The notes under the pieces are model-generated. The model was not told the origin of the DNA, did no database searches, and saw nothing but the letters and a program-made list of their open reading frames with translations. Made by a program: the position numbers and the translations under genes. From positions 1 to 32,992 of IMG/VR virus record IMGVR_UViG_3300005096_000523: a stretch of 32,992 bases of DNA. One strand, written 5' to 3'. Positions 1 through 4,985 of this stretch are shown in pieces (the first letter of the stretch is position 1; each line of letters starts with the position of its first letter). Source of the DNA: a virus.

Positions 1-927
1 ATGCGTCTGGATTATGCAATGGAAGGCTATTGGTTGTCAAAAAGACGAAACCTGAGCCCCAATACCCAGCGCGATTACGAACTCACCTTCAGGCGCTTCC
101 TGGAGTTCGTGGGGCCTGATGCCGAGGTTGAGGCGATCACTAGCAGCGATGTAGAGCAGTTCCTGAATTTCCTTACCGATGAGCTGGGACTCTCCGACAA
201 GACCGTCATCAACCATTTTATCGCCCTCTCCTCTTTTTGGACCTGGGCCGAGAGGAACCTGGGGATCCCACACATCGTCCGCGGCCGCGTGGAGTGTCCC
301 AGATACCATCGCCCTCAGATCGTTCCGTTCACGCCGGAGGAGGTGCGCGCCCTGCTCGAGGCGTGTGACTACAACGCTCCCTGGGATTGCAGATGGGTCA
401 AAGGGGTCAGAGGCCGCAGGCCCACTGCATTGCGGGATCGCGCCATCATCCTCATGTTGGTCGATTCGGGCATCCGGGTCAGTGAGCTGGTCATGCTGCG
501 CGTGCGCGATTACGACCGCCGCCGGGGGCAGGTGATCATCCGACACGGCAAGGGGAACAAGACGCGGGTCATTTTCGTGGGGGATACGACCAGGCGGGCC
601 ATGTGGCGATACCTGGCCTCTAGAGGGGAGCTCGAAGAGGACGACCCGCTGTTTGCCACATCGAATGGGAAGCCTCTGGACCGACACAACGTCCGCAAAA
701 TGCTGCAGAAGGCAGGCCAGCGAGCGGGCATCCAGAGGGTATACCCGCATCGGTTTCGTCACACCTTCGCCATCACCTTCCTGCGGAATGGGGGAAACCC
801 TCTGGAGCTACAAGAGATGCTGGGCCACGCGAGGCTGGACACGGTTCGCATCTACGCTCGCCTGGCCGAGGTGGACCTGGAGCGGGCGCAGAGAAGCGCC
901 AGCCCGGCGGACAACTGGCGCCTGTAG
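1..927 (+). CDS. Tyrosine recombinase / integrase (XerC/D-like)
   Basis: Site-specific DNA recombinase of the tyrosine family, likely responsible for integration and excision of this prophage. At 308 residues it has the usual full length of this family, so the ATG at base 1 is probably the real start even though it sits on the window edge. The N-terminal 100 or so residues form a SAM-like core-binding domain. The catalytic set is complete: R159 (in GIRVSEL), K184 (in GKGNK), H250 and R253 (in HRFRHTF), H276 (in LGHARLD) and the nucleophile Y285 (in VRIYARL). The stop is TAG. It is followed directly by palindromes and the promoter of the next gene. An alternative role as a host Xer-type enzyme is less likely given the phage operon that follows. 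Confidence 0.93.
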   Translation: MRLDYAMEGYWLSKRRNLSPNTQRDYELTFRRFLEFVGPDAEVEAITSSDVEQFLNFLTDELGLSDKTVINHFIALSSFWTWAERNLGIPHIVRGRVECPRYHRPQIVPFTPEEVRALLEACDYNAPWDCRWVKGVRGRRPTALRDRAIILMLVDSGIRVSELVMLRVRDYDRRRGQVIIRHGKGNKTRVIFVGDTTRRAMWRYLASRGELEEDDPLFATSNGKPLDRHNVRKMLQKAGQRAGIQRVYPHRFRHTFAITFLRNGGNPLELQEMLGHARLDTVRIYARLAEVDLERAQRSASPADNWRL

Positions 928-980: not shown

Positions 981-1009
981 TTGACAAAAAAACGACGTTG
1001 TGCTATATA
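981..1009 (+). promoter_or_regulatory. Sigma70-type promoter, probable late/leftmost operon promoter
   Basis: A perfect -35 box TTGACA (981-986) is followed after exactly 17 bases by TATATA (1004-1009). The stretch is AT-rich in an otherwise GC-rich region. It is the best promoter seen in the window and reads into the small gene at 1096, and into the whole rightward operon if the terminator at 1327 is passed. The tandem hairpins downstream suggest expression is controlled after initiation. Confidence 0.7.
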
Positions 1010-1064: not shown

Positions 1065-1082
1065 ACGGGCCTATTCGGGGCC
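1065..1082 (+). repeat. 18-bp direct repeat, copy 1
   Basis: ACGGGCCTATTCGGGGCC occurs here and again at 1315-1332, exactly 250 bases later and identical. The last GGGGCC forms the left arm of a hairpin in both places. The copies bracket the small gene at 1096-1299. Confidence 0.85.
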
Positions 1083-1109
1083 GATATCGGGAGGCATGAT
1101 GTCGGCCCC
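1077..1109 (+). other. Stem-loop enclosing the Shine-Dalgarno and start codon of the next gene
   Basis: GGGGCCGA (1077-1084) pairs perfectly with TCGGCCCC (1102-1109), leaving a 17-base loop. The loop holds the Shine-Dalgarno GGGAGG (1089-1094) and the ATG at 1096, so folding would expose or cage the initiation region. The repeat itself could form a competing GGCC/GGCC hairpin. Regulation is inferred from structure only. Confidence 0.5.
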
Positions 1110-1299
1110 GTTCGCTTTGTCAGAGGTCGTTCGGAAGACGTGCACCGTCCCGCGCTGCCTGGAGCGGCGGCGCAAGCGGGGGCAGACCAACGGGCAGTTC
1201 CTGTTCGCCTATCGCTGGACGGAGCGTGGCATCATCATCGAGCTGCCATGCCCGGAGTGCGGCACGAATCATCAGATCGAGATCGCCAAGCCTGAATAG
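1096..1299 (+). CDS. Small Cys-containing protein, putative zinc-binding
   Basis: Unrecognised 67-residue protein. The start ATG at 1096 (or the in-frame ATG at 1099) follows GGGAGG at 1089-1094. It contains a Cys pair near residues 16-21 (C-T-V-P-R-C) and a CPEC knuckle near residue 53, spaced like a small zinc ribbon, with a basic stretch (LERRRKRG) between. Such small proteins in phages can be transcription regulators or nucleic-acid-binding factors, but there is no direct evidence here. It sits alone between a strong promoter and a strong terminator and is bracketed by an 18-bp repeat, so it is transcribed first. The stop is TAG. Confidence 0.6.
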   Translation: MMSAPFALSEVVRKTCTVPRCLERRRKRGQTNGQFLFAYRWTERGIIIELPCPECGTNHQIEIAKPE

Positions 1300-1314
1300 A
1301 ATACTCTGAGATCA

Positions 1315-1332
1315 ACGGGCCTATTCGGGGCC
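1315..1332 (+). repeat. 18-bp direct repeat, copy 2
   Basis: Identical to 1065-1082. Its GGGGCC tail is the left arm of the terminator hairpin that follows. Confidence 0.85.
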
Positions 1333-1361
1333 ACCTTCCTCATCGGGAGGTGGCCCCTTTT
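1327..1361 (+). terminator. Rho-independent terminator
   Basis: GGGGCCACCT (1327-1336) pairs with AGGTGGCCCC (1348-1357). The stem extends inward by a G-U and two G-C pairs, leaving a five-base loop (1340-1344). TTTT follows at 1358-1361, then CGTTTT. This is the clearest intrinsic terminator in the window. Its left arm is part of the 18-bp repeat, so an attenuation or antitermination role is possible. Confidence 0.75.
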
Positions 1362-1432: not shown

Positions 1433-1633
1433 ATGTCGGCGAAAGCGTTCTGGAGGAGCAAGACCTTCTGGTTCAACTGTCTGGCCTTGATTGTCGCCGT
1501 GGCCGGCGCCTTCGGGTACGGCGACTTTCAGCCATCGCCGGAGGTGCAGCAGATGGCGCTGGTCATCGTGACCCTCGCCAACCTGGCGCTGAGGTTCGTG
1601 ACGAGGGAACCTGTGGGGCTCCGTGATCGATGA
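1433..1633 (+). CDS. Small phage membrane protein, holin-like candidate
   Basis: 66-residue protein starting at the ATG at 1433, which follows the purine-rich GGAGGAAGAGG (1420-1430). An upstream in-frame extension exists but has no ribosome binding site. There is a hydrophobic segment near residues 12-30 (W-F-N-C-L-A-L-I-V-A-V-A-G-A-F) and a second near residues 42-56, giving a two-helix membrane hairpin, and it ends in a short charged tail (VTREPVGLRDR). Small proteins of this pattern, often ending in LRFVT-x-EP-V, recur in tailed phages, where they are annotated as holin-like or superinfection-related membrane proteins. The reading frame overlaps the next gene by an ATGA, so the two are coupled. 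A holin role is inferred, not shown; no endolysin is nearby. Confidence 0.6.
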   Translation: MSAKAFWRSKTFWFNCLALIVAVAGAFGYGDFQPSPEVQQMALVIVTLANLALRFVTREPVGLRDR

Positions 1634-1842
1634 GGATCGCCATGGTGGACATCATGCAAAGCGCTGCGACCTTCGGTTTTGGGGCGCTGATGGCCGTATT
1701 GGTCTTCATCGCCTATGAGCGTCTGGTAAAGGAAGTGGTCTCGGTCGTGCGAGCGAACACGAAGGCCATGGAGGAGCTTTCGACACTGATCCACAACCTA
1801 AGCGATCGAGTGGCCGCCCTAGAGCGGGCGATGGACCGCTGA
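1630..1842 (+). CDS. Small membrane-anchored coiled-coil protein
   Basis: 70-residue protein whose ATG overlaps the stop of the previous gene (ATGA at 1630-1633). An N-terminal hydrophobic stretch (about residues 11-29, F-G-A-L-M-A-V-L-V-F-I-A) is followed by a heptad-like charged helix to the C-terminus (KAMEEL, IHNLSDRVAALERAM). One membrane segment plus a cytoplasmic coiled coil is a common layout for small phage proteins such as BhlA-type holins or lysis-timing accessories. It probably acts with its upstream neighbour in the membrane. The family is not recognised with certainty. An alternative start at the ATG at 1642 would shorten it by four residues. Confidence 0.6.
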   Translation: MRIAMVDIMQSAATFGFGALMAVLVFIAYERLVKEVVSVVRANTKAMEELSTLIHNLSDRVAALERAMDR

Positions 1843-1870
1843 GGCTCGCGTTGTAAAACAGTGGGAAACA

Positions 1871-2287
1871 ATGCCTTGGGTGAAGGGACAGAGCGGGAAC
1901 CCTCGGGGGCGCCCACCGAAGGGCCGGGCGCTCACCGAGATCCTGAGGAAGGCCGGCAGCAAGACCCTGGAGGTCCACGGCAGGCGCATCTCCAGGAAAC
2001 GGCTGGTGGCCGACTTGTTATGGCAGGCGGCCGCCACCGGGAAGGTGATCTTCCCGGATGGCCGGGCGCTGGAAGTGCCATTTGCCGACTGGCTCGACGT
2101 GGTGAAGTTCATCTACTCGCACATTGACGGGCCGCCCAAGGTGAGCATGGAGCTCACGGGTGAGGACGGCAAGCCGATTCCCATTTCCGTGATCGAGGTC
2201 GTAAAGGACTATGGCGGGATTGCTGGAGGTTCGGGGAGAGAAGGTGAGGCTGAACCTGCATCCGGGCCAGACCCGGACGTGGGATAG
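1871..2287 (+). CDS. Terminase small subunit-like protein (DUF5681-type N-terminus)
   Basis: 138-residue protein located directly before the large terminase. Residues 6-17 carry the G-Q-S-G-N-P-R-G-R-P-P-K signature typical of DUF5681 proteins, which are found in phage packaging loci. A helical region follows (ALTEILRKAG, LVADLLWQAA). The tail (after about residue 105) is low-complexity and lies over the start of the terminase reading frame. The expected role is recognition of phage DNA and delivery to the large subunit and portal; this is inferred from position and the N-terminal motif. The ATG at 1871 has only a weak purine stretch before it (GGGAAACA). Confidence 0.7.
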   Translation: MPWVKGQSGNPRGRPPKGRALTEILRKAGSKTLEVHGRRISRKRLVADLLWQAAATGKVIFPDGRALEVPFADWLDVVKFIYSHIDGPPKVSMELTGEDGKPIPISVIEVVKDYGGIAGGSGREGEAEPASGPDPDVG

Positions 2288-3498
2288 CGATAAGCGCTTT
2301 GTGTTCATGCTGGCCGGGACGCAGGGCGGGAAGACGTCCTTTCGGCCCCTGGTGGCTGTGGCGGGAGATCCAGGCCCGGGGGCCGGGTGACTACCTGGCC
2401 GTCACGGCCACGTTCGATCTTTTCAAGCTGAAGATGCTGCCCGAGATGCTGCGGGTGTTCGAGGACGTCCTGCGCATCGGGCGCTACTGGGCCGGCGAGC
2501 GGGTGCTTGAGATCTGCGAGGGGGCCGTGCCCGGCGGTCGGTTCCTGGCCGAGCGGGCGGACGATCCCATGTGGGCCCGGATCATCCTGCGGTCGGCCCA
2601 CAGCGGCGGCGGGCTGGAGTCGGCCACGGCCAACGCCGCCTGGCTGGACGAGGCCGGGCAGGACACCTTTCGGCTGGACTCCTGGGAGGCGGTGTTGCGG
2701 CGCCTCAGCCTGGCCGAGGGGCGGGTGTTGGGCACGACCACCGTGTACAACCTGGGCTGGCTGAAAACGGAGGTCTACGATCCGTGGCGGGAGGGGGATC
2801 CGGACATCGAGGTGGTGCAGTTCGATAGCATCCTGAACCCGGCCTTCCCCAGGGCAGAGTTCGAGAGGGCCCGTCGGCGGCTGCCCGCCTGGAAGTTCAA
2901 CATGTTCTATCGCGGCCGGTTCGCCCGCCCAGCGGGGCTCATCTACGAGGACTTCGACGAGAACGTGCATCTGGTGGATCCATTTGAGCTATCCCCCGAA
3001 TGGCCCCGATACGTGGGCATCGACTTCGGGGCCGTCCACACGGCCATGGTGTGGATCGCCGAGGACGTCCACCGATCCGCCTATTACGTGTATCGGGGGT
3101 CCCTCAAGGGCGGTCGAACCACCCGGCAGCACGTGCGGGAGGCGCTGCAGGAGGCCCGATTCGAGCGGGTCGTCGGCTGGTGGGGTGGATCCAGGAGCGA
3201 GAAGCAGCAGCGATGGGACTGGGCCCGGGAGGGGATCCACGTGCAGGAGCCACCCATCTCGGACGTCGAGGCCGGCATCGATCGGGTGATTCAGCTTCTG
3301 AAGGAGAAGCGATTGTTCGTGTTCAAGTCGTGTCGTGGACTGCTGGAGGAGTTCAACACGTATAGCCGTGAGCTGGACGAGCGGGGGAATCCGACGGAGA
3401 AGATCAAGGACAAGGAGCAATTCCACCGGCTGGATGCGCTGCGGTACGTGGTGAGCGGCATCCTGGGGCCGGTGGGTGCCGTGGGGGCGGTCTTTTAA
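2211..3498 (+). CDS. terL: Terminase large subunit, split by a one-base frameshift
   Basis: ATP-driven DNA packaging motor and nuclease. The first part reads in one frame from ATG 2211 (or GTG 2244, preceded by GGGGAG) through RFVFMLAGTQGGKTSF, which contains the Walker A motif GTQGGKT. That frame ends at TGA 2388-2390. The expected continuation FGPWWLWREI is in the next frame from 2341 and stays open to 3498. Removing one T in the TTT at 2340-2342 restores a continuous protein of about 428 residues. The second frame, open from TTG 2299, carries Walker B (W-L-D-E-A, D at 2647, E at 2650), a TTT coupling-type motif and the RNase H-like nuclease start GIDFG (D at 3022). Cause unknown: mutation, assembly error or recoding. 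Confidence 0.85.
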
Positions 3499-3500
3499 GC

Positions 3501-4985
3501 ATGGCAGGTACCAGATCGAAGCAACCGAGGCTGGCGCAGACGAAAGATGTCGTCTCCTACGTCTTCACGCTGTGGGAGGTGGCCCAGGATGACATCCCAC
3601 CATGGGGGAAGCCGGGTCGGGCGGAGAAGTTGCGGGAGTTCGCCCGGGCCGAGCCCATCCTGGCCGGTGCGCTGGCCTCCATGGTGAGCAAGGTCGTCTC
3701 GCTGGACTGGCAGATCACCGGCGGGCGCAACCGGGTGCGCCGCTATCACGAGGTGCTGTCCGAGGCGGAGGACGGCGCCGGCTGGTCGTTCCTGCTGGAT
3801 CGTTGGGCGCAGGACTATCTCAATACCGACCTGGGCGGCGTGGTCGAGCTGGCGCGAGACAGCCGGACGGGCCCGGTGGTGGCGCTGTACAACATCGACT
3901 CGGCGAGGCTAACGCTCACCGGCAATGCGAACGTCCCCCTGCGCTACGTTCCCCACCTGACCCACAAGCCGATCCCGCTCTATCCCGGCGACTTCACCCG
4001 GGCGGTGGACATGCCCAGCCCGGATGAGCGCTATTTCAGCCTGGGGTTCTGCGCCGTCAGCCGAGCACTGAAGGTGGCCAAGGTGCTTCTGGCCCTGTAC
4101 AACTACGAGGAGGAGCAGCTGCGCGATCTGCCGCCTAAGGGGATCGTGACCATCACCGGCATGACCATGCCGGAGGTGCAGGAAGCATTCAAGCTCTACG
4201 AGGCGAGGCGCAAGAGCAAGGAGCAGACCACCTTCAAGGGCGTGCTGTGGCTGGCGGCACAGGCCAACCCAATGCAGCCCATTGACGTGAAGATCACGCC
4301 CTTCGCCACGCTGCCCGATCACTTCGACAAGGAGAAAGCGATCACGCTATATGTCTTCACGCTCTCTCTGGACTTCGGCGTGGACGTGCGGGAGTTCTGG
4401 CCCGCGTCTCAGGCTGGCGCCACCAAGGCCGAGGCGGAGATCCAGCACCAGAAGGCGTTGGGCAAGGGGTTCGGCCGGCTGGTGTCGGGGATCGAGCGGG
4501 CCATCAACTGGGATGTCCTGCCCGACGGGCTGGAATTCGCCTTCGATCAGAAGGACGCGCAGGACGACCTCCTGCGGGTGCAGATTCACGAGAAAGTGAT
4601 CGCCAATGTGCGCAGGCTGTGGGAGCCGAACCCCGTCACCGGCGAGGGGCTGATCGACACGGACGAGGCCCGGCGCATGCTGGTGGAGGCGGAGGCGGTG
4701 CCGGCCTGGCTGGCCACCGGACGGGGGATCACGTTGCACAGCACGGAGGATCTGGAGTCCGAGGTGGCGAAGGCCGCCAATGAGCGCCTGGCCGCCGTCG
4801 TCGAGAAGGCGTTGCTGGATCCGGGCGAGGACCTGGTGGCGATCAATCGCCGGGGCGAGATGATCACCCTCTGGTCGAGTCGGTTCTACAGCTTCCCCCG
4901 GGCAATCCCTGCACCCGGCTGGCCGGGGGCGAAGGAGGGTGAGCCCTCTGCCCCTTTCGGCGGTTTCTCGGCGGAATATCCGTAA
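3501..4985 (+). CDS. Phage portal protein
   Basis: 494-residue protein beginning two bases after the terminase stop. Portal proteins form the dodecameric ring at the capsid vertex through which DNA enters and leaves. The length, the position between terminase and a gp7/F-like minor head protein, and the order of features fit: an N-terminal region with FARAEPILAGALASMVSKVVSLDWQI (repeated in many portals as a helix before the wing), a beta-rich wing with YNIDSARLTLTG and RYVPHLTHKPIPL, a helical stem region (PEVQEAFKLYEARRKSKEQ), and a crown-like helical C-terminus. It most resembles portals of the DUF935/SPP1 kind, but subfamily assignment is uncertain. The C-terminal 30 residues are Gly/Pro-rich and the stop overlaps the possible beginning of the next gene. 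Confidence 0.85.
   Translation: MAGTRSKQPRLAQTKDVVSYVFTLWEVAQDDIPPWGKPGRAEKLREFARAEPILAGALASMVSKVVSLDWQITGGRNRVRRYHEVLSEAEDGAGWSFLLDRWAQDYLNTDLGGVVELARDSRTGPVVALYNIDSARLTLTGNANVPLRYVPHLTHKPIPLYPGDFTRAVDMPSPDERYFSLGFCAVSRALKVAKVLLALYNYEEEQLRDLPPKGIVTITGMTMPEVQEAFKLYEARRKSKEQTTFKGVLWLAAQANPMQPIDVKITPFATLPDHFDKEKAITLYVFTLSLDFGVDVREFWPASQAGATKAEAEIQHQKALGKGFGRLVSGIERAINWDVLPDGLEFAFDQKDAQDDLLRVQIHEKVIANVRRLWEPNPVTGEGLIDTDEARRMLVEAEAVPAWLATGRGITLHSTEDLESEVAKAANERLAAVVEKALLDPGEDLVAINRRGEMITLWSSRFYSFPRAIPAPGWPGAKEGEPSAPFGGFSAEYP

Follow-up and report, generated by a model that had tools for sequence, protein, structure and literature searches.

The window, by which we mean the whole stretch of DNA analysed here, is the complete IMG/VR record IMGVR_UViG_3300005096_000523 (32,992 bp), and the viruses under comparison are phages of Chloroflexota bacteria. 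On its plus strand, an integrase gene is followed by a small gene, a holin-like gene, a small-terminase-like gene, the large terminase gene and head genes. The features on which the present analysis bears are the following:

1..927, plus strand: tyrosine integrase gene (Pfam Phage_integrase, 1e-36), a flanking gene outside the proposed switch
981..1009, plus strand: candidate promoter TTGACA-17 nt-TATATA with the extended -10 element TGTGCTA (TGTGCTATATA), recognised in the sequence by its match to the consensus
1065..1082, plus strand: repeat copy 1, in the leader, with its own 15-nt hairpin (1068-1082)
1076..1110, plus strand: leader hairpin enclosing the Shine-Dalgarno sequence and the start codons, incompatible with the hairpin 1068-1082
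1096..1299, plus strand: gene of a 67-residue zinc-ribbon-like protein (open reading frame, homologues and alignment)
1315..1332, plus strand: repeat copy 2, with the antiterminator-type hairpin 1318-1332 (GGCCU-AUUCG-GGGCC), kept in six of six loci
1327..1361, plus strand: intrinsic terminator, a 13-bp hairpin and TTTT, whose base (1328-1332) is common with the antiterminator-type hairpin
1433..1633, plus strand: holin-like gene (PHROG holin, 2.9e-4), first gene of the late operon
1630..3498, plus strand: start of the late operon, with a small gene, the small-terminase-like gene and the large terminase gene (profile matches)
1871-2287, plus strand: DUF5681 (small-terminase-like) gene (profile match)
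2299-3498, plus strand: large terminase gene, its 5′ part in another frame

Transcription from the candidate promoter would start at about 1016-1018. The record begins with the ATG of the integrase (position 1) and ends with the ATG of an opposite-strand open reading frame (32992), as if trimmed at gene boundaries, so that the att sites would lie outside it.

The large terminase is itself peculiar. One frame runs from the ATG at 2211 to the Walker A motif (GTQGGKTSF), within 2211-2345, and past this motif, from TTTCGG, the reading frame is displaced by one base (+1). The same shift is present in three separate assemblies (the window, L029 at about 1091-1220 and L030 at about 2962-3095), and in more distant relatives the Walker A region lies in one frame. 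It may be that UUU-CGG is a site of programmed +1 frameshifting, or that the three share a lesion; an error of assembly is unlikely to be the cause.

A repeat and its mutually exclusive hairpins

Exactly two copies of the 18-bp sequence ACGGGCCTATTCGGGGCC are found in the whole 32,992-bp record, at 1065-1082 and 1315-1332, and they flank the 67-residue gene as the initial annotation had described; a third copy is absent from the record even at 3 mismatches (0.12 expected). The likeness of the copies extends past the 18 bp, since ATCGGGAGG, GGCCCC and TTCG can be read in both. Each copy had also been said to supply the left arm of a hairpin, and this is borne out on both sides of the gene. Copy 1 opens the start-site hairpin 1076-1110 (14 pairs, loop of 7; z -3.9 against shuffled sequence), in which the Shine-Dalgarno sequence GGGAGG (1089-1094) lies mostly inside the loop and the ATG codons within the 3′ arm. 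Because GGGAGG is only 1 nt away from the ATG at 1096, the ATG at 1099 may be the real start. Copy 2 opens the hairpin 1327-1357 (13 pairs, then TTTT; z -4.3 against shuffled sequence), a GC-rich stem with the U-tract directly 3′, as in an intrinsic terminator; with -29.5 kcal/mol, 1327-1361 exceeds every other terminator-like site of the window in stability.

In addition, each copy can fold on its own into a 5-bp hairpin with a 5-nt loop ending in CG (1068-1082 and 1318-1332). In copy 2, the 3′ arm of this short hairpin is the base of the terminator 5′ arm, and the two folds are therefore mutually exclusive; in copy 1, the hairpin 1068-1082 likewise excludes the longer hairpin 1076-1110. When the short leader hairpin was forced in the folding calculation, the start codons became more likely to be unpaired, the probability for most of their bases moving from near 0 to about 0.1-0.4.

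Conservation of the small gene and of the hairpin

Homologues of the 67-residue protein were retrieved by genome search (G297, E 3e-11; G026, E 7e-9), at a frequency of two in 396 genomes of the class, and three more by alignment-based scans of viral contigs (L063, L064 and L066), which brings the family to six phages or prophages with the window included. These are not six independent lineages, as L046 and L063 are 70% identical. Viral contigs searched with the window protein alone yielded no relatives, and the GenBank phage collection yielded no match for the two family members queried. The six sequences (about 30-70% identity) align over the motif TCxxPxC...R..RGQ.[ND]G..L...CxECGxxH, that is, T-C-x2-P-x-C, R-x2-R-G-Q-x-[ND]-G and C-x-E-C-G-x2-H, with four Cys and one His invariant. 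An Arg-rich segment (ERRRKRGQ; RRRRERRGQ in L045/L058) suggests by resemblance a contact with RNA.

Pfam, NCBIfam and PHROG held no convincing family for the small protein: its best Pfam match was zf-tcix (E 0.007, below the cut-off of that family), none of the matches was to an RNA-binding family, and PDB sequences offered nothing worth following. Structure prediction was weak (pLDDT 63), and a fold search gave no PDB match below E 1. Neither a CAT RNA-binding or PRD domain nor an ANTAR domain was found by Pfam in the window protein or its homologues. The lambda Q families gave only PHROG 6060, for one member at E 0.46; Ogr/Delta and Com zinc proteins were absent from the Pfam and PHROG matches, and no homology of the small protein to lambda N was found.

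All six loci share one architecture, namely a promoter-like sequence, the small gene, a short hairpin overlapping a strong terminator, and a holin-like gene. Genome bins and viral contigs are assemblies, promoters are consensus matches, and gene names outside the window were assigned by eye without profile search. A short HTH-like open reading frame is inserted between terminator and holin-like gene in L063, and the operon of L064 goes on with coiled-coil, M23-like peptidase, HNH, and small and large terminase genes. The distance from stop codon to hairpin is 18 nt in the window and ranges from 18 to about 60 nt among the relatives. The promoter form TTGACA...TGTGCTA is common to the window, L030, L063 (two promoters) and L059, which suggests a common type of late promoter with an extended -10; with the spacing written as TTGACA-N11/12-TGTGCTA, it is read at 981-1010 in the window, 1891-1920 in L030 and 4903-4930 in L063, and in L098 and L059. 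Upstream of the promoter of the small gene, L046 (about 1740-1840, minus strand) and L063 (about 4825-4900) have two noncoding elements in common, CCTAGTATC.GG.TTA.AGGAAAGGAAACG and CACGGA.TT.ACCGTGA, which are possibly activator or repressor sites.

At the base of the terminator, the repeat takes the form ACGGGCCTATTCGGGGCC in the window, ACGGGCTCGACCGGAGCC in L058 (the L045 locus), ACGGGCTCAATCGGAGCC in L066, TCGGGCTCGGACGGAGCC in L064, ACAGGCTTGAACGAAGCC in L063 and CCTGGCTTGAACGAAGCC in L059 (the L046 locus). The consensus GGC-YY-NNNCG-RR-GCC describes a hairpin (5-bp stem, 5-nt loop) whose 3′ arm also forms the base of the terminator 5′ arm. The exact repeat recurs nowhere else in the record; in relatives, where the initial annotation had advised looking for it, its hairpin form became apparent once the six terminators were aligned. 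All nine distinct rows are fully paired (100%), with UA or CG at pair 4 and UG, CG or UA at pair 5 and with G-U pairs in four of the nine, and pairing falls to 62-67% when the partner is slid by one column; formal covariation is weak, a double-sided change being seen at one pair only and 20 of 500 shuffles reaching the score. The upstream arm, which lies outside the terminator, is conserved (mean 5.1 of 6), more so than the noncoding bases that precede it (3.2 of 6).

At all nine elements the short hairpin overlaps the 5′ arm of the terminator and excludes it, in the manner of RAT-type antiterminators: forcing the short hairpin abolishes the pairs proximal to the U-tract in every terminator and leaves a truncated, detached stem, the energy cost ranging from 1.0 kcal/mol (L064) to 11.6 kcal/mol (L063c), with 7.4 in the window. 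Distinct strong terminator-like sites with such a base hairpin numbered 11 of 145 across 45 loci, comprising eight elements, which have the hairpin by construction of the search, and three others, for a background of 3/137; L063c, whose T-run did not pass the filter, was left out. With a covariance model of the element, the nine known sites obtain 31-43 bits (a match by construction; 31.5 for the window), and in 356 genomes of the class only known sites exceeded 30 bits, the next best standing at 28.6. Weaker matches were treated as chance, 26 of 28 inspected having no T-run within 45 nt. Exact scans of viral and genome contig sets for repeat plus terminator returned nothing, a relaxed pattern returned 24 loci of which only two, already known, were real while the others had no terminator fold, and Rfam gave no match above gathering score.

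The element also recurs at other late terminators of the same phages. In the G026 contig, a pattern search located a second element in the interval from the terminase to a head-protease-like gene; a promoter precedes this element, and no open reading frame separates the two. The 49-kb record of L063 contains three, all on one strand (a control pattern gave 0): one after the small gene, one after the terminase, behind a promoter and again with no open reading frame between, and one before a tape-measure-like gene, with no promoter noted just upstream. The two elements behind promoters without an intervening gene are not explained as terminators of a stand-alone gene.

The element was not found in phages related by other genes. 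A TerL search found two near relatives in Chloroflexota genome bins; the element was missing from seven further phage records with a related TerL or integrase, and L029 and L030 gave no match to the element model, so that the records with neither protein nor element number nine (TerL- or integrase-related). The TerL-based relatives L003-L028 have no small gene and no comparable leader. L030, from Anaerolineae, shares with the window the integrase (82% nucleotide identity), a promoter at the same position and the same late genes, and where the window has the small gene it has a different small open reading frame and a different terminator without the short hairpin. The slot between integrase and terminase is thus variable: it is filled by this unrelated frame with its own terminator in L030 (1984-2238) and by an unrelated larger frame, caspase/CHAT-like by eye, in L029 (1-720).

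The leader is far less constant than the terminator. A leader copy is present in the window and, in an altered form, in L064, where a hairpin of the same shape has the different stem GTCTC-AAACG-GGGAC (recognised by eye after a 15.5-bit model match); it is not found in the other four homologue loci. Leaders are short in all loci except the window, L064 and L066. A complete intrinsic terminator (4904-4938) occupies the interval from promoter to small gene in L066 (AAACGGGGTCGCC...GGCGATCCCGTTTTTT), which places the small gene of that phage between two terminators.

A candidate antitermination switch and its alternatives

To the initial annotation this site had looked like an attenuation or antitermination control point for the late operon, possibly with the Cys-containing protein binding the repeat. 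The comparison of six phages supports the first part, and binding of the protein to the repeat becomes plausible from their co-occurrence, the position of the gene and the Arg-rich segment. We hold it probable, with modest confidence, that a regulated terminator precedes the late operon, the short hairpin acting as antiterminator and the small protein being the likely factor; judged from sequence, the best reading of its type is a RAT/ANTAR-like, protein-dependent antitermination switch for late genes. RNA started at the promoter (981-1009) would encode the small protein and end by default at the terminator (1327-1361). Once formed, the short hairpin 1318-1332 would take the base of the terminator 5′ arm and leave a shortened stem detached from the U-tract, upon which RNA polymerase would continue into the holin and further late genes. 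The terminator is the stronger of the two folds, so a ligand would be needed to hold the short hairpin. The small protein is the best candidate, since in all six loci its gene immediately precedes the element, which was not found in records without the protein; as its level rose, the protein would open the late operon, although the ligand could also come from the host or be a different protein of the phage. From these observations we infer binding by the protein, antitermination in vivo and autoregulation. In the window, the leader copy overlaps the start-site structure, and the same binding may be coupled to translation of the protein itself; the leader element being variable, its function is the least certain step. 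The wider proposition, that zinc-ribbon-like proteins of about 70 residues form a family of RNA-binding antiterminators which switch on late genes by holding a 15-nt hairpin at the base of each late terminator, several such terminators making up one regulon, and that in this phage the hairpin also gates translation of the factor itself, is tentative and falls somewhat short of probable.

Several other explanations deserve consideration. The layout of promoter, gene and terminator could be that of a moron-like cassette, expressed in the lysogen for an unrelated purpose and insulated by its terminator from a silent late operon, and the different small frame and terminator in the same slot of the close relative L030 would suit such a cassette. 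It is nonetheless unlikely, for element and terminator recur behind promoters without an open reading frame and inside the late operon, the upstream arm is conserved though unnecessary for termination, and the gene keeps its position before the holin-like gene in diverged phages. A factor of the Q or AlpA kind, loading at promoter DNA and carrying polymerase through the terminator, would account for a late promoter, a terminator and then lysis genes (PMC6606751; PMC9371919) and for the TGTGCTA promoters common to several loci, with the short hairpin being incidental or a pause signal. We regard this as improbable, because it leaves unexplained why a hairpin is tied to every terminator base, including the one inside the operon with no promoter noted just upstream, and why it is rare at other terminators.

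Even less probable is a DNA operator, in which the 15-bp dyad would serve the small protein or another regulator and overlap the terminator by chance. GGCTTnnnnnAAGCC is indeed also a dyad in DNA, and DNA binding is frequent among zinc ribbons, but four of nine rows tolerate G-U pairs that break a DNA dyad, the 3′ arm coincides with the base of the terminator in every case, and the sites lie downstream of promoters. Ribosome-controlled attenuation through translation of the small frame would draw on the 18-nt distance from stop codon to hairpin in the window and is very doubtful given the spread of this distance among relatives and the two elements with no preceding frame. Least credible of all is recombination at the repeat by the neighbouring integrase, either att-like, as raised initially, or integron-like, which had in its favour a direct repeat adjoining a tyrosine integrase. 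In L030 a tRNA-Val gene precedes the integrase shared with the window, and in the phage record L033, with an integrase 72% identical, the 3′ half of that gene occupies the same place; this puts the attachment region of the integrase family, with the 3′ half of tRNA-Val(CAC), upstream of the integrase (664-960 in L030, 2431-2541 in L033). These relatives have no such repeat, and the repeat lies outside that attachment region. In other phages, moreover, it recurs at late terminators far from any integrase, and the integron-like cassette was rejected together with the att site.

Comparison with known antitermination systems

Phage late genes are known to be switched on by Q-type antitermination, by activators or by new sigma factors. 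The phage lambda N system is comparable in size, boxB being a 15-nt hairpin with a 5-bp stem and a 5-nt loop, and N a small Arg-containing protein encoded between a promoter and the first terminator. However, boxB is separate from the terminator, and N moves along with polymerase, whereas here each terminator contains the hairpin. The put element of HK022 needs no protein and is not located at the terminator. It is mentioned as a phage RNA element that suppresses terminators (PMC8955417). Lambda Q and AlpA likewise act where a late promoter and a terminator precede lysis and late genes (PMC6606751; PMC9371919), yet they load through promoter DNA, without an RNA hairpin tied to the terminator.

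In the BglG/SacY/LicT proteins and their RAT sequences, an RNA hairpin stabilised by a protein is likewise mutually exclusive with an intrinsic terminator (PMC3369936; PMC9981650). Those systems control sugar operons, whereas the element described here has a 15-nt hairpin with a 5-nt loop, would respond to a short zinc-ribbon-like protein that lacks CAT and PRD domains and precedes phage late genes. In ANTAR systems (AmiR, NasR), formation of the P2 loop hairpin leaves a shorter terminator stem that no longer adjoins the U-tract (PMC3369936), as does the forced short hairpin here; they rely on a pair of hairpins (P1 and P2) and an ANTAR domain, in contrast to the single hairpin at each terminator in the present phages and to their unrelated protein. 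ConAn of plasmid pLS20 likewise combines a protein with an RNA element, placed where a long, terminator-containing operon of a mobile element begins (PMC8955417), but the conAn2 RNA acts once, at the operon start, and here there is one element at each terminator.

Among the papers searched, there was no antitermination study for Chloroflexota phages. If the proposed switch is real, a hairpin embedded in terminators and reused within one phage, with an unstudied small zinc-ribbon-like protein as its probable partner, would add to the known means of timing lysis and assembly, and in a compact form, of 15 nt and about 70 residues. By homology it belongs to none of the systems compared; it resembles Q and AlpA in layout, boxB in size, RAT and ANTAR in logic, and ConAn in its use throughout an operon.
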